Source: an uncultured Lachnospiraceae bacterium (lineage in GTDB: Bacteria; Bacillota; Clostridia; Lachnospirales; Lachnospiraceae). From it: a stretch of DNA of 64,000 nt. Positions 48,882 to 64,000 of this stretch are shown piece by piece (position 1 is the stretch's first letter; every line of letters starts with the position of its first letter). Both the position numbers and the translations under genes were made by a program. The stretch is taken from assembly GCA_946554445.1 (NCBI GenBank), contig CAMNSD010000014.1:1-64000 (forward strand), written 5' to 3'. Below the pieces are notes generated by a model. It ran no database searches and had not been told where the DNA came from. It saw only the letters and a list, made by a program, of their open reading frames with translations.

Positions 48882-48987
48882 GAGTGTCAAAGCATAACAA
48901 TTTCTAGATAACAATAATGTGTCAAATCAAACATTCTTACTTTTCAGAAAATCTATGCTTTTAAATTCAAACCAATTACATTTAAAA

Positions 48988-49051
48988 GCAGGAGATTCTG
49001 ATACGGGCAGTTCTACTCTGACGGAAATGCGGCCATGCCATTTTCTCCTGC
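48988..49051 (+). promoter_or_regulatory. Leader inverted repeat before the Rpn gene
   Basis: GCAGGAGA (48988-48995) and TCTCCTGC (49044-49051) can pair over a 48-base loop, four bases before the ribosome site GGGAGG (49056-49061). The right arm is itself an anti-Shine-Dalgarno sequence that could mask the ribosome site instead of the left arm, a possible translational switch (inference). Confidence 0.35.
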
Positions 49052-49065
49052 AGACGGGAGGAAAC

Positions 49066-49926
49066 ATGGAGAAGATTTCATTAAAGGCAGACTATGCTTT
49101 CAAGGAGCTGTTTGCCCACGAAAAAGTCAGGAAACAATTTTTGAGTGATGTGCTGGGGATACCTTTGGAACAGATCAAGTCGGTGCGGCTGGCGAATCCT
49201 TTTCTGCGAAGGACATTCCGGAGGCAGAAGCAGGGGATCATGGATATCGCGCTGGTACTTAACGACAACACCAAGATTGATATCGAGATGCAGGTGTACA
49301 GACAGAAACATTACACCCAAAGGAAACTGTACTATTTGGCGAGGATGTACACGGATGACCTGATGATTGGAGAAAAATACAGGAAACTGCGCCGATGTGT
49401 CAGTATCAGTCTGGTGGATTTTGAACTTCTTTCGGATACGGAGGAATATCACAGTGTCTATCGTCTGCGTGATGAAACGGGCAGGGAACTGACGGATCTG
49501 TGGGAGATACATATCATCGAACTGAGGAAGGAACTCACCGGGCGCAGAGTGGATGACTGGATCCGGCTGTTCAATGCGACCAGCCAGGAAGAGGTAGACC
49601 GGATTGCAGAACAGAATGGGAGGATGAGAGACGTGGCAGAGGTGATAAGACAGATGGGACTGATCAGAACATTACGCTGGATGTATGATGATTATTGGAG
49701 AGCAAAGAGAGATCGTTGGGATGAGGACGAGTATGTGCGGGATGAAGGCATTGCTATCGGTAAAGCTGAAGATACCCTCCAACTCCTCAACACCCTTGGC
49801 AAAGTCCCGACGGACCTTGCCGAGAGGATCAAATCCGAACGGGACACGGAAATCCTGGACCGCTGGCACCTGTCAGCCGCCAAGGCTGACAGCATTGCGC
49901 AGTTTCGCGAAAGGGAGGATTTGTAA
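49066..49926 (+). CDS. Rpn-family PD-(D/E)XK nuclease/transposase, full-length copy
   Basis: A 286-aa protein of the PDDEXK_2 (Rpn/YhgA-like, 'PD-(D/E)XK nuclease family transposase') type. The N-terminus KADYAFKELFAHEKVRKQFL is typical; catalytic residues are D60 in GIMDIALVL and E74-x-Q76 in DIEMQV. Rpn proteins cut DNA and promote RecA-independent recombination. The C-terminal part (about 200-286) is a charged tail with a TLQLLNTLG segment. The ATG at 49066 has GGGAGG upstream; the in-frame extension to 48919 has no ribosome site. A second, shorter copy follows. Confidence 0.85.
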   Translation: MEKISLKADYAFKELFAHEKVRKQFLSDVLGIPLEQIKSVRLANPFLRRTFRRQKQGIMDIALVLNDNTKIDIEMQVYRQKHYTQRKLYYLARMYTDDLMIGEKYRKLRRCVSISLVDFELLSDTEEYHSVYRLRDETGRELTDLWEIHIIELRKELTGRRVDDWIRLFNATSQEEVDRIAEQNGRMRDVAEVIRQMGLIRTLRWMYDDYWRAKRDRWDEDEYVRDEGIAIGKAEDTLQLLNTLGKVPTDLAERIKSERDTEILDRWHLSAAKADSIAQFREREDL

Positions 49927-49963
49927 AATAAAAAAGTTCTTGACATGCTATTCCGCCCCAACT

Positions 49964-50707
49964 ATGCGGCTGGCGAATCCTTTTCTGCGGAAATGGTTCC
50001 GCAGACAGAAGCAGGGAATCCTGGATGTCCTGCTCATATTAAATGATGATACCCGGATCGGTATTGAGATGCAGGTACACACGCAGAACCACTGGACGAA
50101 GCGAAATCTGTATTATCTGGGACGGATGTATACGGATGAACTGATGGTCGGAGAGAATTACGGGAAACTGCATCGGTGTATCAGTATCAGTCTCCTGGAT
50201 TTTAAACTGTTGCCGAACACGGGAAATTATCACAACATTTACCGTTTACGGAACAGGGACGGAGAAGAACTGACGGATCTGTGGGAAGTGCATATCATCG
50301 AACTGGGGAAGGAACTGACAGGGAACAGAGTAGATGACTGGATCCGGTTATTCAATGCGACCAGCCAGGAAGAGGTAGACCGGATCGCAGAACAGAATGG
50401 GAGGATGAGAGACGTGGCAGAGGTGGTAAGACAGATGGGGCTGATCAGGACAATAAGATGGTTCTATGATGGATATTGGAGAGCAAAGAGAGACCGCTGG
50501 GCCGAGGACGAGTATGTGCGGGATGAGGGCATTGCTATCGGTAAAGCTGAAGATACCCTCCAACTCCTCAACACCCTTGGCGAAGTCCCGACGGACCTTG
50601 CCGAGAGGATCAAATCCGAACGCGACACAGAAATCCTGGACCGCTGGCACCTGTCGGCCGCCAGGGCTGACAGCATTGCGCATTTTCGCGAAAGGGAGGA
50701 TTTGTAA
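49964..50707 (+). CDS. Second Rpn-family nuclease copy lacking 39 N-terminal residues
   Basis: A tandem paralogue aligned codon for codon with residues 40-286 of the first gene (both segments are 744 bp). It starts MRLANPFLRKWFRRQKQGIL, with the first 39 residues absent. The catalytic D21 and E35-x-Q37 equivalents are kept. The final 380 bp differ from the first copy at only a few dozen sites, while the 5' half is more diverged, suggesting gene conversion. There is no clear ribosome site before the ATG, so it may be a decaying duplicate or expressed by readthrough. Confidence 0.6.
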   Translation: MRLANPFLRKWFRRQKQGILDVLLILNDDTRIGIEMQVHTQNHWTKRNLYYLGRMYTDELMVGENYGKLHRCISISLLDFKLLPNTGNYHNIYRLRNRDGEELTDLWEVHIIELGKELTGNRVDDWIRLFNATSQEEVDRIAEQNGRMRDVAEVVRQMGLIRTIRWFYDGYWRAKRDRWAEDEYVRDEGIAIGKAEDTLQLLNTLGEVPTDLAERIKSERDTEILDRWHLSAARADSIAHFREREDL

Positions 50708-50736
50708 AAATTCCTTTCTAAATTTATAAAACTGAT

Positions 50737-50774
50737 AAAACGCCTCATAACCCAAACCGGTCATGAGGCGTTTT
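50737..50774. terminator. Bidirectional intrinsic terminator
   Basis: A perfect 12-bp stem, AAAACGCCTCAT (50737-50748) with ATGAGGCGTTTT (50763-50774), with A/T-rich tracts on both sides. It can end the plus-strand Rpn transcript and the minus-strand pilin-cluster transcript, which converge here. Confidence 0.88.
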
Positions 50775-50802
50775 ATTATATCTTTTACTATCTACAAACC
50801 AT

Positions 50803-53800
50803 TTACTCTAGCAGGAACATCTGCGCCCTTGTGAGGGCGATGACATCAGTGCCAATCGCATGACGCTCCTTGCCACCCTTCATATATCTGGTATCGAGTG
50901 CGATGAAGATTCTGGAAACTTCCTCATCGTTTCCTTTCAGCGCCACCACCGGAGCCTTAATCCGATACACAACTCCCTGTCTGAATAATCCATCCGTCAC
51001 TTCCACAAGGCGGTTATTCTCCACCATCCAGACCTGGCTGCCAAAAGGTGTGAAATCAACCTCATTGATACTGCCGTCCGCAAGCACTAACTCCGCGTCC
51101 GGATTACCACCATTTTCGTAGTAGAAGGAAATTTTCGTCACCTTATTGAACGCGATATTGTTGTCCACGAACTTGAAATACACGTCCACCGTCTCATCCA
51201 GGATTCCGCCTTCTGTATCCGCATTGAGTTTAAATTCCTGATCGAAAGGAATCGGTATGCTTTCTACGGATGTAGCTGATGCTCCAAATCCTGCCACAAT
51301 ATCTACTTTCGGGTTGTGGATACCGGCATTATATGCCGCGGTCAAAGCATTGACAAACAGCTTGCACTCATCCACACCGTCCTTCGGCTCCTCACCGTTA
51401 TCCTTCTCATAAAAATACGGATATTCGTTCTGTCCCACATACACCACATTGGCCTTGCTGTAAATATAATAGTTATTGCGGGCGTCTCTCGGGGAAACCC
51501 GATACCCACCGCCGCCCTCCGAACTATTATCATTCAGCGTATACCAACCGGTCACATGGACATCGCTATCCTTTGTATTATTGGCGAAATCTAACAAATA
51601 CTCAGGCGCCATAAGGGTTGTGACATCGCTGAAAAAGGCTGAACCCAACTCTCCTCCTACCTCAAAAGGATAGCAGGTGATACTTCCCTCATTAATCTTC
51701 TGTGCCTGCAGTGACGGCATGGGATCCGCAAACATATCCCTGTCCAAACCTTCATAGCGGTAATATGCTCCGCCATCCCGGCCAAGTTTGGAGTATGTCA
51801 TATCATTGGACTGCCCCAAAAGTGCTATATCCAATCCCAGACGTCCCGTATCTTCCGTGGCGCCTGCATAAGAGATCAGCACACTCCGTCCCTCGTTGAT
51901 ATATGCTGTCACCGCATCCTGCGCCGCTCCCAGGGAACCGCTGTTGCCAAATCCCAGCACCAGTACATCCCACTGGTTCAGATAATTGCCATTTTGGGCA
52001 ATTCTCTCTCCCAATTGTGCTGAGGTAATCGTCTCAAACTCATACTTCACATTGAGTTTATTCTCCGCCATCTCCAGATAACGGCTAAGGGTTGCATTGT
52101 TAAGCTTCTCAAACTGTGTCTGCAGATTCGCTTTCTGATTCTCCGTATCATCCAGCACCTGTAGGACATTGACCGGAAGCTGCACCTGTCCTTGGATGGT
52201 AAAATAACCCATCATGGCATCCCTGCGGTAGCCATTATTGGCATCGGAAACCTCTAATTTCCAGGGAATAATCCCCGATTCCACGCCCTCAAACGAAACT
52301 GTGACCTGGCCGTCGCCTTCCACATATCCGCCAATCTCTCCTGTGGGATACAATTCCTCAGAAGGCGCAAAGAAACCGTCATAATTCAGATCCAGGTACA
52401 GATGTATCGAAGTATCCCCATGATAGGTATTGTCTACCTCTTCGTTGTCCCCTTCTTCTCCATCCTCATTCTTCTGTTCCTGATTGCCGGTAATACGATA
52501 GAGAATCGTCCCTTCATATTTACCGTCTTCCGTGCGTTCCAGACTCTGAATCAGCGATGCCTGCTCCGGATCCTGATAATCGATCCGCGGCTTAACCACA
52601 TTCAACTGTGCTCTAAACTCCGGATTGCCTCGAACCTCACGCACCGTATACAGATAGTCCCCGTACTGGTCCAACGCTTCATTCAAGAACGCGTACATCT
52701 GCGTATTGTCCGCAATATATCTAGTATTGACAGATCTAAACTGCTCTCCATCGGATTTCTTGACATTGAGACAGTTATTCTCCACTACCACCGGATAGCC
52801 GGCGCGCAAATAATCTAACAACGCTTCTTTCTTCTGTTCGGTGATATCGCTGGCATCATATCTGGCATCCTTTCCGTATGCCGTGTCACCGGTATGATAG
52901 ACCAACCCATTTAACTCGCTGTCATTATAAACTGTATGTTTATCTCTTCCCTCACGGTTCAGCAGCTGGCCGTCCAAGCCAATGAATATCATGTCGTAGG
53001 CGCTGTTGATATCCGCCCATTCCCCATTAAACTCCGCCACGGATTTTACCACTCTATCCACATCCACAATCTTGGTAGAACGGAATATCTGCTGACCGCT
53101 CTCGCCGGAGTCTTTCTTCTGCCAATATAAGGTTGTGGTCTTCCTATCCTCATTATTATCCACATGCAGGTCGGGTTCCAGATTAGCGCTGGGCTGCAGT
53201 TCCAAGATCGACACATCCCGATAATCCCCGATCATTCCCACTGAATAATTAATGATATAGGCAATGGCCCTGGCTTTGCTGACTTCATCTTCCAGCCAGT
53301 CCTCTTCCTTCAGCATCGTATTCTCCGCACGGATAGCGATCAACACTTCCCGGAAGCCACGCTTCGCCTCATCCCCATCAAAGGACTTCGGGAAATCGTC
53401 ACTCACTAACGGTGTGTCACCATTCACCATATAGATATTTCGGTTTACATAATGGCAATCATTGTCCTCATTGTCCTCAAAATCGTCGCTTTCAAGATTG
53501 TTGAACAAATCGGCCAGTTTATCTTTCTCACCCGTATTCTCATAGAATCCTGCCAGATCTTCTTTTAAGAAAACCCTGGCCAGATTATAATAATTGCTGT
53601 CCTTATATTGATCCGATGGTCCCGGACTGGTAATGATATCATAATCCACTATGACAGGCAACAACTCCGTCACTGCCCTGTTAACGATAGCAAGCGCCAC
53701 TTCTTCGGGCATATCCGACAGCCCTCCATTGCCTTCTCCCTTTGCAATGGTCTGTATGGCAGCGCCACTATTGATGAAGATACCGTCACCATGTTCCAGG

Positions 53801-55812
53801 TAGATCAGATCCGCTTCCTGTACATCGTCCACGCTGACCTCATCCGCCGAAATACAGTTTACCTCAATCGTGAACTGATCGTAATAATTATCCTGGTCTT
53901 CCAGCGCATTGAAGACATATTCTTCAAGCCAGTTATTGCCTTTGCAGCATCGGAAATAGACAGGTGCGTTTTGCACCACCACCTCTTGGGCGTCATCATA
54001 ATTAGCATCACCTGCATAAGCCATCTGGAGATTATATTCGCCGTCTTCGTCTTCTTTTCCCACATATTCTAATATGGGTAAGTTAGTCGAACCGGTGTCA
54101 AACACTGCCACATCCCCGTCAGTCTCTTCATCCGCTTCTGCGCCTTCTTCCCCCTCTATCATTCCGGTAAAAGAATCATCGAAATCATATCGGTCAAGAG
54201 GAATAATCTCGCTGTCCCACTCAGACATCGCTGTCTTATCTTTGATCCGGTAAAGCACGGTATCCTCAGAAGGATTTGTCTCAAAATAAAACTCCAGGAC
54301 ATAATACCTAGAACCAGCATCTTGAGATTTTGGTTCTTCTTCCTCATCATCCGTATCACTTTCTTGATCAGAATCATCCGTATCTTCTATATCGGAATCT
54401 TCGACTTTCTCTTCTTCTCCAGATTCTTCTTCAGATTCCTCCTCAGTTTCCTCGGATTCCCCGTCTTCAATCAGCAAACGCCATACCGCATCCGCCGCCG
54501 CTGACTCGTCAGCTCCATTACTGTCGGAAGAACTACTGTCATTAGTACTTTCCGAACTATTAGAACTACTATCCTCGCTTCCGGCACTGCCGCTACTTTC
54601 GTCTCCGTTTCCGGTGTTGCCGCCATCTTCGTTTCCGGTGTTGTCATCACCTTCCCCGTTTCCGCTTCCGGTATTGTCACCGTCTCCACTTCCAGTGTTG
54701 TCATCACCTTCCCCGTCTCCGCTTCCGGTATTGTCACCGCCTTCGCCTTCATTTCCGGTGTTGTCGTCACCTTCCCCGTCTTTATCAGGATTGTCGTCGC
54801 CTTCGCCCTCCTTATCAGGGTTGTCGCCACCCTCCCCTTCTTTATCTGGATTTTCATCACCGGTACTGCCCTCCGGCTTTTTCCCCTCTTCCGGCTTATC
54901 CTTATCATCGTCCGAAGGCTTCTTATCTTCTTGCGGCAGCCCTAAGACATCCGCCTTCGTACCTACATATTCATAAGTACCATCATCGTTCTTATAATAC
55001 ACCCCTGTTGTATTAGAACAGGAACTTAAATCACCACAGTATTTTATGGTGGGAACATAACCGATCACAGCATCCGCATCATACGCAAAGGTCAGATGCC
55101 ATTCTCCACTATCCTGATTAAATTTAAAGATATCTCCTTCTATGCCTTCCTCATCTAATCCGACAGTCACAGTGCCTTTTACCAGCTTGTATTCCCCGTA
55201 TTTGCCCGCATCTTTATCAGCATCTGTAATCTTGGTCACATATGCCCTCAGCTGACCAGTCGGGGGATCTAACGGACCATCCGCCACAACGGAATCATAT
55301 AATTTGATCCAGTCCCGGCTCCCATCCAGACCATCTATCGTCCCTCCGTATGCTTCCTCGTATGCAATGGATAGAAAATCCGCATTATCAAAACCGGACG
55401 GAACAATCGCCTTGGCCAGAGCCTGCCGCTCCTCATAATCATAAAAAGCAGTATTATCATGAAAAATATCATAGATGTCTTTCTCAATCGGCGCCTGACC
55501 GCCGGTCAGATAGCCAATCGTTCCCGTGGACAGATTATAAGTCTTGGCATTAGAACCTCCCATAATATACATTGCCTTAGTAGGCGTAATGTCCAGAATC
55601 TTGAAAGGATTACCCTTATCATGTTCCTCCACAATCTCCTTCATGCCCGCAAAGGATTCCTTCGCATAGACATCATCCATATCCTGTACACGACCGACCA
55701 GCCCGTATATTCCGGTGGCCGCCACAGCGGCAGCCGTTACGGCTGCTACTGCCATAACGGCTGTTTTCTTATTCAGTTTCGGTTGCCCAATCTTCTGAAT
55801 CTTTTTCATCAT
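50803..55812 (-). CDS. Giant secreted/membrane-anchored DUF5057-like surface protein
   Basis: A 1669-aa protein. A basic N-terminus and one hydrophobic segment (about residues 19-40, AVMAVAAVTAAAVAATGIYG) form a Sec signal or anchor. The next part, NPFKILDITPTKAMYIMGGS, resembles the DUF5057 family of Lachnospiraceae surface proteins. Residues about 310-505 are a low-complexity Gly/Asp/Glu/Asn/Ser linker made of repeated GEGDDNTG-type units, and the rest is a long beta-rich region with few cysteines. No LPXTG motif, so it is not a sortase substrate. It is the last gene of the pilin-like cluster and may be its adhesin or tip partner. The family assignment is from memory of the N-terminal pattern. 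Confidence 0.7.
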   Translation of the reverse strand: MMKKIQKIGQPKLNKKTAVMAVAAVTAAAVAATGIYGLVGRVQDMDDVYAKESFAGMKEIVEEHDKGNPFKILDITPTKAMYIMGGSNAKTYNLSTGTIGYLTGGQAPIEKDIYDIFHDNTAFYDYEERQALAKAIVPSGFDNADFLSIAYEEAYGGTIDGLDGSRDWIKLYDSVVADGPLDPPTGQLRAYVTKITDADKDAGKYGEYKLVKGTVTVGLDEEGIEGDIFKFNQDSGEWHLTFAYDADAVIGYVPTIKYCGDLSSCSNTTGVYYKNDDGTYEYVGTKADVLGLPQEDKKPSDDDKDKPEEGKKPEGSTGDENPDKEGEGGDNPDKEGEGDDNPDKDGEGDDNTGNEGEGGDNTGSGDGEGDDNTGSGDGDNTGSGNGEGDDNTGNEDGGNTGNGDESSGSAGSEDSSSNSSESTNDSSSSDSNGADESAAADAVWRLLIEDGESEETEEESEEESGEEEKVEDSDIEDTDDSDQESDTDDEEEEPKSQDAGSRYYVLEFYFETNPSEDTVLYRIKDKTAMSEWDSEIIPLDRYDFDDSFTGMIEGEEGAEADEETDGDVAVFDTGSTNLPILEYVGKEDEDGEYNLQMAYAGDANYDDAQEVVVQNAPVYFRCCKGNNWLEEYVFNALEDQDNYYDQFTIEVNCISADEVSVDDVQEADLIYLEHGDGIFINSGAAIQTIAKGEGNGGLSDMPEEVALAIVNRAVTELLPVIVDYDIITSPGPSDQYKDSNYYNLARVFLKEDLAGFYENTGEKDKLADLFNNLESDDFEDNEDNDCHYVNRNIYMVNGDTPLVSDDFPKSFDGDEAKRGFREVLIAIRAENTMLKEEDWLEDEVSKARAIAYIINYSVGMIGDYRDVSILELQPSANLEPDLHVDNNEDRKTTTLYWQKKDSGESGQQIFRSTKIVDVDRVVKSVAEFNGEWADINSAYDMIFIGLDGQLLNREGRDKHTVYNDSELNGLVYHTGDTAYGKDARYDASDITEQKKEALLDYLRAGYPVVVENNCLNVKKSDGEQFRSVNTRYIADNTQMYAFLNEALDQYGDYLYTVREVRGNPEFRAQLNVVKPRIDYQDPEQASLIQSLERTEDGKYEGTILYRITGNQEQKNEDGEEGDNEEVDNTYHGDTSIHLYLDLNYDGFFAPSEELYPTGEIGGYVEGDGQVTVSFEGVESGIIPWKLEVSDANNGYRRDAMMGYFTIQGQVQLPVNVLQVLDDTENQKANLQTQFEKLNNATLSRYLEMAENKLNVKYEFETITSAQLGERIAQNGNYLNQWDVLVLGFGNSGSLGAAQDAVTAYINEGRSVLISYAGATEDTGRLGLDIALLGQSNDMTYSKLGRDGGAYYRYEGLDRDMFADPMPSLQAQKINEGSITCYPFEVGGELGSAFFSDVTTLMAPEYLLDFANNTKDSDVHVTGWYTLNDNSSEGGGGYRVSPRDARNNYYIYSKANVVYVGQNEYPYFYEKDNGEEPKDGVDECKLFVNALTAAYNAGIHNPKVDIVAGFGASATSVESIPIPFDQEFKLNADTEGGILDETVDVYFKFVDNNIAFNKVTKISFYYENGGNPDAELVLADGSINEVDFTPFGSQVWMVENNRLVEVTDGLFRQGVVYRIKAPVVALKGNDEEVSRIFIALDTRYMKGGKERHAIGTDVIALTRAQMFLLE
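54610..54870. repeat. Degenerate tandem repeat encoding the acidic linker
   Basis: Repeated units around TTCCGGTGTTGTCATCACC and GGATTGTCGTCGCC encode the GEGDDNTG/GEGGDNPDKE repeats of the DUF5057-like protein. Unit length varies between about 24 and 36 bp, so copy-number variation between strains is likely. Confidence 0.7.
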
Positions 55813-55876
55813 ACCATCTCACATACTGTTTACTTTGTTGCCGGTTTCTGATATTGTTGGTGATTTTGCTTTTACA

Positions 55877-58800
55877 CTACTTTTTGGTCCATGAATTCTT
55901 TGATCCATCCCATTGGAAAATAGCATCTATCTTATCGCCATCCCACTCTCGCCGGAAAAAGGTAACTTGATGCATACCTCCGGTTATTTCGTATTTTACC
56001 TTAACATTATGAACATACTGACCGGTTTCTGCATATTGATCATTTTGCAGATAAAGCACAAAGGAAGATAACTCCTTCTCTTCACCTGTTGCGAACGGGA
56101 AATCTCCTGCGGTTGGCGCCGGAAGATACATCTTATAAGTATTACCGCTCAACTGCAGCCCTTCCAGTGTCGCAACGAAATCTGTCTCTGAAGGCAGTTC
56201 TTTAAGACCTGCTGTTTTTGTCCACTTTGTCTGCCCTTGACTCCATGTGTAAGTACCATAAGAAACAACTTTTATCTTATGATTTTGATTCCACTCAGTT
56301 TTCATCGGCGTTTTACTAATAAATTCAATCTCGTAATCCGTTCCGTTCTTCGTACACTGCACAAGCAAGTTGGAAAGCTTCTTTGTATCACCTAAATTAC
56401 CGCTCCGATGGAGAGACAAGGAATAATATGTCTCCTGAAGGCCACCCGCTAACGGGAACGAAGGATCATCCGGCAACGGGAAATATGTCATCCACAGCCC
56501 TGATTCATATTCAAAATCCTCCACAGTAAAGAGCAATTCTTTCTCTACCGTTCCTCCTGTGCCTGGACGATGCACCCATTCCTTACCGTTCTCCTCACAG
56601 ACAAAAATACCATAAGAGTGTGTCCGCATTTTCTTATTCTGTGTGTCATACCTTACTTCAATAGGTTCCACTTCATATGTATGCTGTTTGGCAATATAGC
56701 GATAACGTACATAAGTAAACAACTCTTGATTTTGGGCATTAGACCAGCCATCCGGCATCACCAGCATAGATAACGATCCGCCAGATGTCTGCCAATCTGT
56801 ACTCTGGAGATTCGGGAACCGCACATCTCCTGCCATCTGGGACGGCAGTGGGAACAACACCTTACCCTTAAACCAGTCATCATTGATCACCATCGTAAAT
56901 TCGCTGTTAACTTCCACGTGGATAATACTGTCGTCAAACTGATAATAACGCTTTTCACGCGGCAGATTCGGAAAGTCAAATCCATCCCAGCCAATAATCT
57001 CATAATGATCTGAATCTAAGTTCTGGTACAACATACCCGGCACAATATGATATTTTCCGCAGGCACCCAGTATATCACCCTGATGTTCCAGTTTCATGAA
57101 CATACTGCCTCGGGGATCCACCGTTACCTTGCCAGCAAATTCCCGCTTTCCCTCATAGGACATCGTCCCTTCATTAAAATAATAGATTTTATTCCACTTA
57201 GAAATATCATTCCCTTCGCCCTCATAAAGGCTGTTGGTATAGTTATTCCAAACGGAATCATCCTGCACAATGTTCTCATAACCACATGGCTTTATCTGTC
57301 CGACAATACCAGTACCGTTACCCACTGAATAAATATTCACCGGATCATATGTGATATGTTCCCCTTTATAACGAACGTTTTTATACTCAAAAGTTAACTT
57401 TGGTTTATCCAGCACACTGTAATATACCTCGTTGTGCGGATATTTCGTTCCAATATATCCATAGGGCTTATTCTTATCCAGATGCGCAAAATATTCCTCC
57501 CTGATTGCCGCCGCATCATCTTCTATGACAGAACCAACCTCATGGTTATTATACTTATCACGGTTCTCTTTAGATACCGGATCTATCGCCTGCATATAGA
57601 AGGTATAGCTTCCGTTCAGATCCAGATCAAATAAGTCCGGTGCGATACGATAGTTATTACCACCGCCAATGGTAAAATAAAGCAGGACTTTATCTTTCTC
57701 TTTTCCGGTATTATCCACAACACGGACCGCTGTCACATATTTCGGATGATCCGTAGGCAGACCCGCGCGGATTTCCTCCAACAGCGTCTCCTCACCATAT
57801 TTCAAATTACCGCTGAACGGTTTGGCGTTGCTCTTACCTTTCACCGCTGTCAACTCAATGGCTTCCCCGAAAAAGTATTCACATCTGCCCTGCTCATTGG
57901 GACAAACCGAAAGAAGCGACATCGCCTGAATAACAAACTTGAAACTTCCGTCATCCGGCGTATTCGGCTCCAGATAGAACGTTGCACTGTGTTCATCCTG
58001 GGAAATCAGTTTCAGATAGTCCTTCGGTTTCCACCATGACATGGAAGGATCATATTCCTGTGGATCAACGATACGCCATGGAAAACCACTATTGTACTTA
58101 TTTCCCTCACATGAAACCTGTCTGTCCTTCTCGGTACTCTCTCCGCACGCACTGCAGGTCTCTCCGAGTCTGGGGCCATCGACATTCGTAGATATGGTAA
58201 AAGTACATCCCGGCGATATTTCATTGGGACCGTTCCCATCATCTGTGTCCGCCGATTTATACAAGCCCAAAGTTGTAACTCGTTTTATGTAAACTAAAAC
58301 CTCACAGGAAGCGTGGTTATTATCCTCGTCCACCGCATTGGTCGTAATCATCACTTTCACTGTTCCTGCCGGTTCATCATTCGCTATCTTCAGAATACCG
58401 TTCTCCTCATCAAACGGAGTTTCAAACCCTGTCCCACCGGAACCTGCGGACACGACGGACCATTTAACGCTCTTGTCCGTCACATTTTCGCCCGTCACCT
58501 TAGGCGCGGAAAAATGATATTTCTCGCCAGGCTCCAAAATCACTGCCGTTTCCCTCGCAATAATAGAGAGCGTCTTTCTCTTATTAAGCGGTCCAACTTC
58601 TGCATCATTGACCGCCACTTTATTACGGATGGTCACGTTATTGGATGTATTGTACTCTCTCTTACCATCCACAAAAGTCAGTTCCAGCTGAACAACACGC
58701 TTTTCCTCCACCTGTGTCAAGTCCACCTCGAACTTAGTCACATGCTCTGCAAGCACCACCCAACCAGAATCAGGATCTCCAATTTGCGGAAACCTGACAT

Positions 58801-59308
58801 TGATATTGCCGTTCGGATCCACGTCATCAGGAAGCACATCCAATTCTGCATAATAGAGCGTCTCTTCGGCCTTATCCCAATAGAACTGATAATGCTTGTT
58901 GCCATTTCCCGGTTCTATCGTTGGCGGAGCAGGAGTGACGCCAGGAGCCGCCGGTGCGGACTCAACAGGAACGCCATTATACATAATAAGACTCTTTCCC
59001 ACAGGTTCAAAACCAAACTCGGAATCTTTTAATACCAGCACCCCATCTGACGTAAACGTCTCATAGCCCACATAATTAACGCTTCTGGTGGTATCAATCA
59101 GGACATCCGACATCTGGTTCATGGCAAGCTGCGCTTCCTGCTGTACACTGATATCGCTGTTGGCGGAAGCATAGCTTCTGGAACCCACCACGATAAACCC
59201 AGATACCGCCACGACGACGATCGCCAGAATTGCCATTGCAATCAAAAGTTCCACTATGGTGAATCCTCTCTGATCCTTTCTCATCCTTTTATCTTCTCCC
59301 CGTAACAT
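55877..59308 (-). CDS. Giant prepilin-like protein with Ig-like and Cys-rich extensions
   Basis: A 1143-aa protein with a type IV prepilin leader: basic start, then QRG|FTIVELLIAMAILAIVVV, with the conserved Glu at +5 and a hydrophobic helix to about residue 45. The pilin part (about 45-240, PilW/GspJ-like) is followed by a bacterial Ig-like domain (about 245-345: LSIIARETAVILEPGEKYHF and ILKIANDEPAGTVKV), a segment with CSACGES and VCPNEQGRC cysteine pairs (about 385-500), and a long beta-rich C-terminus. Normal minor pilins are 150-250 aa, so most of this is grafted. It may act as a pilus-tip adhesin. An internal ATG at 59284 is an alternative start. Confidence 0.82.
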   Translation of the reverse strand: MLRGEDKRMRKDQRGFTIVELLIAMAILAIVVVAVSGFIVVGSRSYASANSDISVQQEAQLAMNQMSDVLIDTTRSVNYVGYETFTSDGVLVLKDSEFGFEPVGKSLIMYNGVPVESAPAAPGVTPAPPTIEPGNGNKHYQFYWDKAEETLYYAELDVLPDDVDPNGNINVRFPQIGDPDSGWVVLAEHVTKFEVDLTQVEEKRVVQLELTFVDGKREYNTSNNVTIRNKVAVNDAEVGPLNKRKTLSIIARETAVILEPGEKYHFSAPKVTGENVTDKSVKWSVVSAGSGGTGFETPFDEENGILKIANDEPAGTVKVMITTNAVDEDNNHASCEVLVYIKRVTTLGLYKSADTDDGNGPNEISPGCTFTISTNVDGPRLGETCSACGESTEKDRQVSCEGNKYNSGFPWRIVDPQEYDPSMSWWKPKDYLKLISQDEHSATFYLEPNTPDDGSFKFVIQAMSLLSVCPNEQGRCEYFFGEAIELTAVKGKSNAKPFSGNLKYGEETLLEEIRAGLPTDHPKYVTAVRVVDNTGKEKDKVLLYFTIGGGNNYRIAPDLFDLDLNGSYTFYMQAIDPVSKENRDKYNNHEVGSVIEDDAAAIREEYFAHLDKNKPYGYIGTKYPHNEVYYSVLDKPKLTFEYKNVRYKGEHITYDPVNIYSVGNGTGIVGQIKPCGYENIVQDDSVWNNYTNSLYEGEGNDISKWNKIYYFNEGTMSYEGKREFAGKVTVDPRGSMFMKLEHQGDILGACGKYHIVPGMLYQNLDSDHYEIIGWDGFDFPNLPREKRYYQFDDSIIHVEVNSEFTMVINDDWFKGKVLFPLPSQMAGDVRFPNLQSTDWQTSGGSLSMLVMPDGWSNAQNQELFTYVRYRYIAKQHTYEVEPIEVRYDTQNKKMRTHSYGIFVCEENGKEWVHRPGTGGTVEKELLFTVEDFEYESGLWMTYFPLPDDPSFPLAGGLQETYYSLSLHRSGNLGDTKKLSNLLVQCTKNGTDYEIEFISKTPMKTEWNQNHKIKVVSYGTYTWSQGQTKWTKTAGLKELPSETDFVATLEGLQLSGNTYKMYLPAPTAGDFPFATGEEKELSSFVLYLQNDQYAETGQYVHNVKVKYEITGGMHQVTFFRREWDGDKIDAIFQWDGSKNSWTKK

Positions 59309-59335
59309 CTTCTACACTCCCTGCTAAGACTATGC

Positions 59336-59875
59336 TTAATACGCTATCACTTGAGATTTTCCGGTCAATGGAATCATCTCAATCCGATATTTCTTACTAC
59401 CGCCTTCAACATAAATATTTTCATAAATGACGCCGCCCGCACCAGCTTTAAAACCGCCGTTGCTACGGTCAAAACGTATCTCGATCTTATCTCCTGCCTC
59501 CAACGATGTTTTCGTGACGCCGCTGGCATCATAGCCGACATACACTCTACTGGTTCCCACCTTCTGGGGTTCTTGCTCTGTCGATGTTCCATCGCTCTCC
59601 GTAATGTACATCTTCGTATATACTGAGCCTTCACTGTCCCGGTAAAGTTCCATGTAGGCATCCGACTTACCCATGGTGGTCACCTTGCAGTCACCGATAG
59701 AACGCTGGATATTATTGGCGCAGCTTTTGGCATTGGCACTGAATATCAAAACAATGGAATAGAAAACCGTACCCATAATGATCGCTATAATAGCAAGCAC
59801 AATAACCAGTTCTATCAGAGAATAGCCACTGTTATCAATATGAAGTTTGTCTTTTTTATGTAATTTTTGGTCCAA
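59336..59875 (-). CDS. Small prepilin (GspH/FimT-like)
   Basis: A 179-aa prepilin. The leader is cleaved at SG|YSLIELVIVLAIIAIIMG with Glu at +5, followed by the hydrophobic helix and a beta-rich head. One of five adjacent pilin-type or surface genes on the same strand; likely a minor pseudopilin that starts or caps fibre assembly. It lies 27 bases upstream of the giant prepilin gene. Confidence 0.82.
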   Translation of the reverse strand: MDQKLHKKDKLHIDNSGYSLIELVIVLAIIAIIMGTVFYSIVLIFSANAKSCANNIQRSIGDCKVTTMGKSDAYMELYRDSEGSVYTKMYITESDGTSTEQEPQKVGTSRVYVGYDASGVTKTSLEAGDKIEIRFDRSNGGFKAGAGGVIYENIYVEGGSKKYRIEMIPLTGKSQVIAY

Positions 59876-59967
59876 ACCCCGTTATCCTTCTTCCTGTTCC
59901 TATCTCTTCGTCCAGACATCCGATACGCTTCCATAGCTGACTTTCCAGTTATATTTACTTCTTGTAT

Positions 59968-62616
59968 TTACTTCTTGATCCAGTTCATATACCGGACAAT
60001 CTCACCGTAATCGATTATCAGATTACCGGCATCATCTACTGTCGGTGCTTCCGCGCCATTGACCATACTACCGTCCCCATTGACAAACATATCTATGGGT
60101 GTAATCGTATCATCGACATCATCCCTGTTCTTCGCTTCAAGCACCTTATAGAGATCCGTCTTATTCTGTTTGATAGATACGGTTGCCGAAGGATCGACCG
60201 TAATCTTACCTTTGGCAATAATCAGGCCGGTAAAGTTCCTATCTACCGTCACATCATCATAAGAAATAATCAGTCTTGTCTTATCATCAATATTTGACAC
60301 ACTTAACGGTTTTCTTGTCAGAATTGCCTGTAATCCGGAATCTGTTTTATAGACCACTGTATCACCATAATGATTGTCATCCAGATACTTCTCTACTTCT
60401 TTTTCCTTGATGACACTGTTAAACACATAATAATCTTTCGCCAGTTCGGGATCTGACGGCACCGTAGAGGCATCCTCCGTCAAATTAAACGTCAGTGCCC
60501 TGTAAATACCCGCAATGTCCGTCGAAAGTTGAAGCACATCCGCCTCTTCCTTTATAGCATTCGGCATTTCATCCGCATTTTCCCCTGTTTCTGTATAAGT
60601 GTCAGGATCTACCGGCGGTTTCTCTGTCCCCTCACCCTCTCCGGGCGTTCCTTCTTCTCCCCCATCAGGATTTAATGTGGCCTGGTCAAGACTGGTAAGC
60701 AACCTCACATCGCCGGCAGATGCCGCCTCGCTCACGAGGCTGTTGCCCAGAATCGTATACTTTATATCTGAATCTGGGTCATTCGTCTCAAAATTTCCTA
60801 AAAGGATACCGCCGGAAGCATAGGTATTAAAGTAGCGGTCAATCGACTCTTTATTCGCATTAAAATTATAATATTGCACGAAATAGCGTTCTGCATTAGT
60901 CTTATCCATAACCAGATAATAATAGAGCAGGTTTCCGCCCCGATAGGGCGCATAAACCTTACGGATATGCTCCATCTTCGTCACACCAAATTCACTTAAG
61001 GACTTACCGCCCAGGCGGTACACCTTCTTATTGAAGTCAACCTCTTGGAATACGCCCTTGCTTTCCCCTTCACCAGAAGCATCTGCATTGCCTGCCTCTC
61101 CAGAACCGCCCGCTTCACCGGTGCCGCTTTCATTTCCTTTTAACATTTCGTCAATGTCACTTTGTTTCTGTCCATTGATAGGATTCTGACCGATGACTGT
61201 CTCCCCGTCCAAGGTTCCAATACACTCCGCCGGCACCAGATAGGCAATCTGGCCGCCCTTGACAGCGATGGACTCACCCATCATCACCGGAACGCTCGGC
61301 TCGCGCGTCCCTGCTGCAATCTGTTCCCGATAAGCATCCGCCTCCGCTACGGTAGACGCCTGCCCGATATAGGAACGCCCCGCCAACAAGAGTCTTTTGA
61401 CGCCCGCCATATCCACGGTGGAGTTCTTACCATTGATGATAATAGCGCTGCTGGCTGAAGAATCCACCTGCCATTTTCCGTCAATCTGCGTCTCTCCCGG
61501 CCGCGCATTATAAGTAGAAACACCATACCCATAATATTCCTTGGTCAACGTAGCTTTACTGCCCGAACCGTTCAAAGACAAGTCGTTGGCCACATAAGTC
61601 TTGCTGTCCAAACTGACTGTACCGCAATCTAATGTGATATTCTGGGCATATACCCGGTTATCCTCTCCCGGCATGTTCCTGACTACAAGGGCTGCCGCAG
61701 GCCCTTTCACAAAAATATCTCCCTTAACAATCACTCTTCTGGCATTATCCAACGCTAATGAATTGGCGGGATAAATACGCAGTCCACCCTTGCCCGTATC
61801 ATCATTTCCTGCATACACACTGCCTTCCACCGTCGTAGTTCCGCCGCCTTTGACATTATTGATGTCATCATCGTCTTTGTCATCATTGATGTCACCGCCA
61901 CCTACGTCAATCCCCGAATTACCAATCAGGCTGTATTCATACAATCCGTCAATGGAACCGTCGTTTTCAAAAATCAACTTCGGCAAATCAATACAGATGT
62001 CCGTCTGCACGATGGACACCCGGTTCTGACTGTCCGTGTAAGACACGTAAATATTCTTGAGGATGATACGATTGTTATTTACCATCTCCATCACCGGTTC
62101 CTTTTTGCTCTCTCCCACCGGCGCGCCGCCTCTATCCCAAAGGGTTGCATCTACACCCTCATGAGCGGAAGATTCCAGAAAAATATCCGCATCCACATAG
62201 GTTTTCAGTTTATCTCTGTTATAAAAACCACTTCCTCTTGCAGGATCCTTCAGACTCTCAATCAGGGTATCCATATATGTGGTGGCAAATGTATTGTAAC
62301 GGTCATCCTCCGTCCCCAGACTCTCCCAGTTCGCCATCACTTCCCGATACGCCACGCCCACCGCATCTGCGGTAGTATGCTGCAGCCCCGCCATAATCTG
62401 CTCCACCACTTCCTCTGCGGAATAGAAGCTGTTCTTATTGCGGACATCAGCTACCTTGATCATATAGTTCATATACGCCATCCAAAGCAGGGTGGTGGCC
62501 AGAATCCCTATCATTGCCATGGCAATAATGACAATCACAATCGCAGATCCCCTGTTGTCGCGTCTTTTCCTGTAATTCTTATATGATTGTATGATTTTTC
62601 CGCACACTTTGTTCAT
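59968..62616 (-). CDS. Very large PilX-like protein (882 aa)
   Basis: The N-terminus NRGSAIVIVIIAMAMIGILA has the Gly-Ser cleavage position and a pilin-like hydrophobic helix, then an FYSAEEVVEQIMAGLQ segment typical of PilX-type proteins. It lacks the +5 Glu of classical pilins. The body (about 220-470) has glycine-rich beta repeats (SVYAGNDDTGKGGLRIYPAN, VIVKGDIFVKGPAAALVV) resembling a beta-helix, an acidic linker around 515-550 and further beta-rich parts. Ordinary PilX proteins are under 200 aa. Likely a minor pilin with a large surface domain. Confidence 0.75.
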   Translation of the reverse strand: MNKVCGKIIQSYKNYRKRRDNRGSAIVIVIIAMAMIGILATTLLWMAYMNYMIKVADVRNKNSFYSAEEVVEQIMAGLQHTTADAVGVAYREVMANWESLGTEDDRYNTFATTYMDTLIESLKDPARGSGFYNRDKLKTYVDADIFLESSAHEGVDATLWDRGGAPVGESKKEPVMEMVNNNRIILKNIYVSYTDSQNRVSIVQTDICIDLPKLIFENDGSIDGLYEYSLIGNSGIDVGGGDINDDKDDDDINNVKGGGTTTVEGSVYAGNDDTGKGGLRIYPANSLALDNARRVIVKGDIFVKGPAAALVVRNMPGEDNRVYAQNITLDCGTVSLDSKTYVANDLSLNGSGSKATLTKEYYGYGVSTYNARPGETQIDGKWQVDSSASSAIIINGKNSTVDMAGVKRLLLAGRSYIGQASTVAEADAYREQIAAGTREPSVPVMMGESIAVKGGQIAYLVPAECIGTLDGETVIGQNPINGQKQSDIDEMLKGNESGTGEAGGSGEAGNADASGEGESKGVFQEVDFNKKVYRLGGKSLSEFGVTKMEHIRKVYAPYRGGNLLYYYLVMDKTNAERYFVQYYNFNANKESIDRYFNTYASGGILLGNFETNDPDSDIKYTILGNSLVSEAASAGDVRLLTSLDQATLNPDGGEEGTPGEGEGTEKPPVDPDTYTETGENADEMPNAIKEEADVLQLSTDIAGIYRALTFNLTEDASTVPSDPELAKDYYVFNSVIKEKEVEKYLDDNHYGDTVVYKTDSGLQAILTRKPLSVSNIDDKTRLIISYDDVTVDRNFTGLIIAKGKITVDPSATVSIKQNKTDLYKVLEAKNRDDVDDTITPIDMFVNGDGSMVNGAEAPTVDDAGNLIIDYGEIVRYMNWIKK

Positions 62617-62645
62617 ACTTTCGCGCTCACCAACCCTTGCCCGTC

Positions 62646-64000
62646 TTAATTGTTCTTACTTCCCTCTATCACGATCATCCGCTCATCATCCGGAAAATCC
62701 CTACCGGCAGCGCCTTCCTTATAAACGCTGACTTCCACATCATAAATCAATTCTGTGATATCTGTGTCCGCCGGAGCCGCTCCCATAGGATTACGGACAC
62801 CGTCCAAAGAATATAATTGTACCGTATTAATAGCCGGCTTAGTATCTGTGAATTGATCTGGCGTATTAAATATGTTTTTCGTTTCATCCCACAGGTGTTC
62901 CCCTGTCAGATAACTCTTACCCACCAAATTCGTCCCAAGATTGGTCTTTAAGGTAAACTTACTGACATCCATCGGTCCAGACTTCCCATTTATTCTAACC
63001 CATGGCGCATATCCCATCTCTTTCGCCATCAACTGGGCATCTGTCAATACTTCATCCGGATTCTTATCCGCTGAGGGTACTTGCTTGGCAATCAGAAGAT
63101 TCAACTTGGCATCTGAATTATTATTAATCTCTATCTTATCTTCTATAGCGACATACAACGGATAATAAATAATATTAACATTAATTTCCTCTCCGCTCAC
63201 ATCCCCGTAGAGTTCATCTTGTACCCAAACCAGGGAACCCATATCGCCATAAATCGCAACTGGCGGATTGCCGGGATATGTGAATTCATACTCATCTGTA
63301 ACATACATATATATCTTGAAGTTTCCCTCTTCATCCTTCTCCGTGTCGCTCTGTTTCAGATTCACCTTAATCGTCCTACTAACATTAAAAACCTGGTCCA
63401 ATGTCTTAAAGGTAAGCCCATCCCGTATTTCCTGCGCAACGTTGTCGGCATCCAAAGCCGCTTTAATGTCCGCATCTTCAAGAGCACCTTTCAATATCGC
63501 CCGTCTAATCTTCTCCGTCTCCACAAAAGTCCCGTTATTCTTATCAATGCTTCTGGCATCCGCCATAGTGGAATTGTTAAACAGATTATCATGGACCGCA
63601 GAACCTTCCATATACCCTCTCGCGTCCACCTTCACCAGCGCATCGAACTTACTCCCCTGCATGGACACATCCCGCAGGCTAAAGTAATAGATACCTGGCG
63701 TGGGGTTCCCGCTCTCGTCCACTTCCATGCCGGTCTCCTCTGCAATGGCGCCTTTGATCAGGTTATCATCTATCACATAGAACTCATTCCCCGGTGTAAA
63801 CTGCGTCTTTAACTCCTCGATATCATAAGCTTTCAAACCCTCCATGATATCCTGCGCCAGGGTAGTGGCCCGCAGTGTCTGCCGGGACTTGATATTTAAT
63901 CTGTTAGAGGCAAGGAACAGATTTAACATCGGTATCACAATGATTGCCAGAATCACCACTGCAATCAACAGTTCCAGCAGGGAAAAACCCGCATCTTTAT
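62646..64000 (-). CDS. Prepilin (PilV-like), start cut by the right window edge
   Basis: The frame is open to the window end. Just inside it reads KDAG|FSLLELLIAVVILAIIVI, a complete prepilin cleavage site with +5 Glu, so only a few N-terminal residues are missing. The body (over 400 aa) is beta-rich, again longer than ordinary minor pilins. A start at 63968 within the helix would be wrong. Genes for the assembly ATPase, platform protein and prepilin peptidase are expected beyond the edge. Confidence 0.8.
   Translation of the reverse strand, partial: KDAGFSLLELLIAVVILAIIVIPMLNLFLASNRLNIKSRQTLRATTLAQDIMEGLKAYDIEELKTQFTPGNEFYVIDDNLIKGAIAEETGMEVDESGNPTPGIYYFSLRDVSMQGSKFDALVKVDARGYMEGSAVHDNLFNNSTMADARSIDKNNGTFVETEKIRRAILKGALEDADIKAALDADNVAQEIRDGLTFKTLDQVFNVSRTIKVNLKQSDTEKDEEGNFKIYMYVTDEYEFTYPGNPPVAIYGDMGSLVWVQDELYGDVSGEEINVNIIYYPLYVAIEDKIEINNNSDAKLNLLIAKQVPSADKNPDEVLTDAQLMAKEMGYAPWVRINGKSGPMDVSKFTLKTNLGTNLVGKSYLTGEHLWDETKNIFNTPDQFTDTKPAINTVQLYSLDGVRNPMGAAPADTDITELIYDVEVSVYKEGAAGRDFPDDERMIVIEGSKNN

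Follow-up and report, generated by a model that had tools for sequence, protein, structure and literature searches.

Five genes at the right end of the window

In this study, 64,000 bases of DNA from an uncultured Lachnospiraceae bacterium (positions 1-64000 of the 99,462-base contig CAMNSD010000014.1, draft genome 4.39 Mb; hereafter the window) were analyzed with respect to five consecutive minus-strand genes at the right end. Four of these genes encode minor-pilin-like proteins and the last encodes a protein of the DUF5057 family. We put the probability that they encode the tip of a retractable type IVa pilus (T4aP) at about two in three. The five genes are very likely one functional unit. 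Judged by homology, the minor pilins likely sit at the tip, where the PilV-, PilX-, FimU- and PilW-like prepilins would form a complex of the I/K/H/J type, probably with PilX as the capping K-type subunit.

All five open reading frames described in an earlier note on this DNA were present. The first encodes a PilV-like (I-type) prepilin of 478 amino acids (aa), which occupies positions 62646-64000 and extends past the window end to a start at contig position 64082. It is followed by a PilX-like (K-type) minor pilin of 882 aa (59968-62616), a small prepilin of 179 aa in the H/FimU-type position (59336-59875), a PilW-like (J-type) prepilin of 1143 aa with a long C-terminal extension (55877-59308) and, as the last gene of the run, the DUF5057 protein of 1669 aa (50803-55812), which matches PF16480 over residues 989-1314 (E value 4.9e-21). 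Class III leaders with Glu5 were found in the PilV-like protein (DAG/FSLLELL), the small prepilin (NSG/YSLIELV) and the PilW-like protein (DQRG/FTIVELL), as the note had described, and N_methyl matches were above the cut-off in all three (2.4e-6, 6.1e-7 and 2.9e-9, respectively). The top NCBIfam match of the PilV-like protein, TIGR02523 PilV (2.9e-9), was under the cut-off of that model. The PilX-like protein has a hydrophobic helix after RG/S; it lacks Glu5, ends in RYMNWIKK and gave no Pfam match at an E value of 1. Pilins are usually 150-200 aa long; PilX is about 5 times, PilW about 6-7 times and PilV about 2.5-3 times that length, against the 3-8 times given earlier for four of the five proteins; the DUF5057 protein is no pilin.

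From pilM through the DUF5057 gene, neighboring genes are separated by 12-92 bases, and an intrinsic-terminator-like hairpin of 18 pairs (50735-50776, minus strand) lies directly 3′ of the DUF5057 stop codon. It was found by a consensus scan that gave 10 sites in the region against 9.1 expected, and it has the longest stem among them. Because the pil genes are on the same strand, the gaps are this short and the hairpin follows the DUF5057 gene, the five genes are regarded as the end of a T4aP gene run. Sortase-type pili were set aside; visual inspection of the five proteins, which did not extend to a search for sortase genes, revealed no sorting signal.

Between topA and the DUF5057 gene (48919-50707), the window contains two PDDEXK_2 (Rpn-type) transposase/nuclease genes. 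They form a tandem duplication with a spacing of 781 and identity blocks of 91% and 73%, and the second reading frame begins within the first copy in a different frame.

Pilus machine genes to the right of the window

The same-strand genes to the right of the window encode, in order, a PilO-like protein, PilM, a prepilin peptidase, the major pilin, PilC, two large membrane proteins, an Rpn-like protein, PilB, dprA-like, comM-like and Rpn-like proteins, and PilT; the Rpn-like, dprA-like and comM-like labels were given by eye, and the Pfam scan covered ten proteins of this region. The assembly genes that the earlier note had suggested looking for on this side, pilM, pilD, pilC, pilB and pilT, were therefore found about 1-19 kb away on one contig and one strand. 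Pfam matches were T2SSE (1.6e-140), T2SSF (4.5e-67), A24 peptidase (3.5e-35 and 2e-19) and PilM_2 (1.4e-14). PilT (L003:205-1260, 351 aa, T2SSE 1.5e-47) was named by size, order and similarity. Judging from these sequences, the presence of a T4aP machine is close to certain. The major pilin gene lies between pilC and pilD (N_methyl 6.6e-9). It contains a 60-base Illumina P7-type adapter with index (L002:5863-5922, contig C14 about 67862-67921), and the truncated pilA frame is therefore an assembly artefact.

The 280-aa protein in the PilO slot had no Pfam match, and its profile recovered the PilO-slot protein of Caldicellulosiruptor (8e-18 to 1e-17). The PilM profile also recovered the PilN-slot protein of that genus, which suggests a PilM-PilN fusion.

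The earlier note had left open a pilus or a pseudopilus-like machine. One alternative is that the cluster is a pseudopilus, or a type II-like secretion system exporting the DUF5057 protein. The minor pilins resemble the H/I/J/K kind known from type II secretion systems too, and the DUF5057 gene is part of the same run; however, pilM and a PilT-like second ATPase are present in the region, the DUF5057 protein carries its own N-terminal signal, and in monoderms, to which the Lachnospiraceae belong, such a system would have no outer membrane to cross. We consider this alternative very improbable, and because pilT is present, a retractable T4aP is preferred to a pseudopilus.

The genes for the two large membrane proteins, which are 746 and 587 aa long and had no Pfam match at 0.01, lie together with an Rpn-like gene between pilB and pilC (L002:8643-12659), unlike several relatives in which pilB(-pilT)-pilC are adjacent; the membrane proteins might modify the pilus. 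The genome has two more secretion-type ATPases (T2SSE; G000:C2:229646-230476 and G000:C18:34085-34681), perhaps of Tad or competence systems.

Conservation among relatives

A survey of 298 near-complete genomes of the same family found DUF5057 (PF16480) in 64 and PilM in 70, the latter among the matches listed, with the weakest omitted. Raw PF11104 matches were too loose (234/298 genomes, many with frames of 700-1000 aa matched only mid-frame), so PilM was accepted only with a model start at or below 40 and a frame of 490-700 aa; a contig-end fragment in G049 was admitted by hand. Both genes were found in 51 genomes, DUF5057 alone in 13, PilM alone in 19 and neither in 215 (odds ratio 44, p 2.8e-29), a strong co-occurrence of the kind the earlier note had proposed to look for. 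With the assembly genes present as well, the interpretation in the note withstood both of the refutations that it had named, and it is partly supported. With 65 DUF5057 entries used (one per genome, two for G140; second and partial entries left out), 45 DUF5057-PilM pairs shared a contig and strand; in 44 of them, DUF5057 lies 6.9-13.2 kb downstream.

All genomes with only one of the two genes were inspected at the locus level. The DUF5057 gene adjoins T4aP genes in 12 of the 13 DUF5057-only genomes; the locus of one of the 13, L039, ends at a contig edge. Among the PilM-only genomes, PilW is directly followed by a topA-like gene in L055, L064 and L065, L066 is a 5.5 kb piece, and the pil clusters of L052 and L068 are of other types.

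Gene order was counted in 91 distinct loci with a complete PilX (98 minus seven repeated PilX proteins), leaving out PilX genes cut by contig ends. The named loci, the best 80 of 196, overlap with the unnamed set, and genes were tagged with profiles iterated on the very loci that they tag. PilV precedes PilX in 84 loci. A DUF5057 gene lies no more than five genes after PilX in 79 loci, and in 73 of these it is the third. Chance arrangement is excluded, since many genomes keep the identical gene order. The records nearest to the DUF5057 protein include Lachnospiraceae (best 82% identity, in the best segment).

In a phylum survey of 398 genomes, DUF5057 was found in 7, namely three of the window's family (window genome included), G621 from another family of the same class, and three of a distant family, f32. 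The f32 loci (L192-L194) have a divergent DUF5057 gene between pilB-pilT-pilC and pilin-like genes. L194 has PilV-, PilW- and PilX-like genes; L193 has a PilV-like gene, another pilin gene and a PilX-like gene; and L192 has two pilin-like genes, for 229 and 599 aa, the latter tagged PilW but without Glu5.

The DUF5057 protein might instead be a separate secreted or surface protein, an adhesin or a carbohydrate-binding pseudoenzyme, that shares only the operon and its regulation with the pilus. Against this, its gene is nearly fixed as the third after PilX (73/79), the linkage to the pilus survives with rearranged order in a second lineage, and no short PilX occurs in loci with both genes; this explanation is considered unlikely.

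In L040 (6671-16801), a single minor-pilin cluster is followed by two tandem DUF5057 genes, for proteins of 1633 and 1661 aa.

Predicted structure of PilX and resemblance to tapirins

The PilX model shows a pilin helix (residues 22-95), a helical part (103-139), strands (183-210), a beta-solenoid insert (about 223-847) and a last strand (874-881). As modeled, PilX is likely a pilin with a tapirin-like beta-solenoid inserted ahead of the last strand, its C-terminal part adopting the predicted tapirin beta-helix fold. The short PilX proteins of L058, L062, L063 and L065 (189-348 aa) have no solenoid and, as judged by eye, retain the C-terminal N-[WY] strand of the long ones; the motif is present in 78 of 99 PilX proteins. 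From this comparison of short and long PilX, the extra domain is inserted into the pilin sheet, as is characteristic of the ComZ/GspK type.

ComZ of Thermus thermophilus, the DNA receptor of a diderm competence pilus, likewise has an extra domain inserted into its pilin sheet, and it was missed by PilFind as PilX was by Pfam (PMC6561018). The system might be mainly a DNA-uptake pilus with PilX as a receptor like ComZ; we regard this possibility as improbable. The fold match of PilX to ComZ was clearly below those to tapirins.

In profile comparisons with tapirins, profile A6 of PilX gave 95.3% over 63 columns, and A8, in which bridging proteins were included, gave 97.4% (E value 1e-11, 306 columns). 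The solenoid parts of PilX and tapirin alone scored 45.2 and 47.2, whereas the 60 column-permuted controls run for each did not exceed 24.0 and reversed ones gave 26.0-29.5. A tapirin-stretch search of the 398 genomes gave clear tapirins in three, one gene encoding the 4wa0 protein itself, which is the basis for the genus name Caldicellulosiruptor. A fourth genome (G391, E value 0.0015) was not accepted, as its matches fall in other genes. In L158 and L161 the gene order is pilB-pilT-pilC-pilA-pilA-pilD-x-pilin-pilin-pilM-pilN-pilO-pilV-tapirin; L160 starts inside pilB. Four more genomes of this genus encode PilX-like proteins of 897-900 aa in the tapirin slot (PilX profile 6e-15 to 2e-21), and most other families fetched have a PilX of 600-774 aa between two prepilin genes.

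Resemblance to tapirins could also be a generic match between beta-solenoids, that is, convergence. The Foldseek comparison of PilX with tapirin gave an E value of only 0.041; profile A4 found no tapirin in the PDB and reached 4.7% probability against tapirins; A8 likewise picked up no tapirin in the PDB, and a single 897-aa bridging protein found nothing as a query. In addition, the pilin half of tapirin fits PilX (80.6% probability) and PilW (85.6%) without discriminating between them. These results weigh against homology, and the profile and solenoid scores above for it; we consider convergence unlikely. That tapirins are K-type tip pilins is moderately supported. Tapirin genes were reportedly already noted in the original tapirin paper to adjoin a type IV pilus operon. 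A literature search, which left most subscription journals outside, found nothing joining tapirin, Caldicellulosiruptor and type IV pili, and tapirin with pilin gave only an unrelated match.

The DUF5057 protein

The DUF5057 protein has an N-terminal hydrophobic signal, an acidic low-complexity linker at about residues 300-500, a calcium-type loop (D1141-x-N1143-x-D1145-G1146) and the C-terminus MFLLE. Using a simple pattern in place of a signal-peptide program, a hydrophobic N-terminus was seen in 83 of 85 distinct DUF5057 proteins and an A-x-A-like site in 82. The model of the L119 homologue resembles ThuA-like folds in its structural matches, and by homology to that model the alpha/beta part is predicted to hold at least one ThuA/GATase-like domain. 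Foldseek matches, mostly to long multi-domain glycosidases at template modeling scores of about 0.08, were set aside. In f32, DUF5057 is fused to a putative ice-binding-like pAdhesive_15 domain (8.5e-50 to 4.7e-40) and Big_2, above the cut-offs in 3/3; in G621 (L195), the fusion partners are PA14 and CarboxypepD_reg, and the upstream neighbor carries NPCBM and SpaA. No paper naming DUF5057 was found in the literature covered by the search described above.

The protein is not a pilin; with moderate confidence, it is exported by its predicted signal peptide and docks on the minor-pilin complex as the outermost effector. Like PilY1/PilC1 of diderm T4aP, it is a large secreted non-pilin encoded next to minor-pilin genes, with the signal recognized by simple pattern, and it has adhesive-domain fusions. 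The fusions share the PilY1 design of one carrier with varied adhesive modules, as outlined in passages of PMC8179133. In Myxococcus, PilY1 forms a priming and tip complex with minor pilins, with PilX at the top, according to passages of PMC7541494. Unlike PilY1, the DUF5057 protein has no PF05567 match; neither had 200 family genomes, though control genomes gave no signal either. A PilY1-like effector role is moderately supported.

Several observations speak against the tip assignment. The PilX model is of middling confidence (predicted local distance difference test, pLDDT, 66.8; predicted template modeling score, pTM, 0.52), as is the L119 model (67.1 and 0.62); in the alignment, L119 and the DUF5057 protein of the window share 23% identity. 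Neither PilX nor PilW of the window gave a recognizable binding motif. The structural matches listed for the DUF5057 model included neither a PilY1 propeller nor a vWA domain, and kinship to PilY1 is therefore hypothetical. In L030, pilB-pilT-pilC are present and DUF5057 is adjacent to pilC, the minor-pilin genes being absent there. Only 3 of the 19 PilM-only genomes, all without a PF16480 match, proved on inspection to encode a short, divergent DUF5057 protein (L057, L061 and L067), and DUF5057 is therefore accessory to piliation.

Proposed mechanism and comparison with known systems

In the proposed mechanism, the I/K/H/J-type minor-pilin complex would start assembly and stay at the tip, with the DUF5057 protein taking the role of outermost effector that PilY1 has in diderms. 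PilB would extend the fibre, the PilX solenoid and DUF5057-borne modules would attach to a surface (plant, mucus or microbial polysaccharide being most likely), and retraction by PilT would draw the cell to it. Polysaccharide is the most likely candidate ligand.

Monoderm T4aP of Clostridioides difficile, C. perfringens and Streptococcus sanguinis are alike in having pilB, pilC, pilD, pilM, a pilO-like gene, pilT, and major and minor pilins, but the run in the window ends with a four-member I/K/H/J-like set and a secreted DUF5057 protein. Passages of PMC10191384 indicate that S. sanguinis uses PilA, PilB and PilC instead. Its modular pilins PilB and PilC likewise join a pilin to a large functional module presumed to be at the tip (passages of PMC8179133 and PMC9934059), but these modules are appended and of vWA or lectin type, whereas that of PilX is a tapirin-like solenoid inserted before the last strand. 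Tapirins of Caldicellulosiruptor, described as cellulose adhesins in parts of PMC7142884, show weak sequence similarity to the Lachnospiraceae PilX proteins, which are mostly 700-900 aa long with extra insertions.

The earlier note had called the cluster an undescribed system. T4aP in monoderms, very large or modular minor pilins, and glycan-binding tip pilins are already published, as far as passages of PMC6916266 (which notes the very large minor pilins), PMC8179133, PMC9934059 and PMC10191384 go; what seems undescribed is the tip make-up, in which an H/I/J/K-like minor-pilin set is combined with a PilX bearing a tapirin-like solenoid and with a secreted DUF5057 partner. PilY1 is stated to be absent in monoderms in a passage of PMC9934059. 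A broader proposal is tentative and slightly more apt to fail than to hold: monoderm Firmicutes would own a PilY1-like system in which DUF5057 is a non-homologous, modular secreted tip effector docked on a solenoid-bearing K-type PilX, thermophile tapirins, hitherto regarded as structurally unique adhesins, would be K-type subunits of a T4aP tip, and tips that grip polysaccharide would occur widely among gut Lachnospiraceae. If true, DUF5057 gains a testable role and monoderm pili a PilY1 counterpart; Lachnospiraceae PilX, ComZ and tapirins, so far described separately, would be united as solenoid-bearing tip pilins; and there would be a hint of how gut Lachnospiraceae attach to and pull along fibre or mucus. 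The tapirin claim is open to immediate test in Caldicellulosiruptor.

PilW modules and other large proteins

In many species, PilW likely bears a second large module. The window's PilW had no Pfam domain above the cut-off beyond N_methyl. Among seven other giant pilins, five had N_methyl alone, that of L062 had N_methyl alone and below the cut-off, and that of L055 had a GLUG motif (E value 3.8e-4). The L055 protein (L055:6223-13650, minus strand) is 2475 aa long, has a class III prepilin leader and belongs to a T4aP cluster without DUF5057; only GLUG was above the cut-off. In L063 (1143-6851, minus strand), a T4aP cluster with small pilins only is followed by a signal-peptidase-like gene, as judged by eye, and then by a gene for a 1699-aa protein, possibly another tip cargo, that begins with a hydrophobic N-terminal stretch and gave no convincing match in Pfam.
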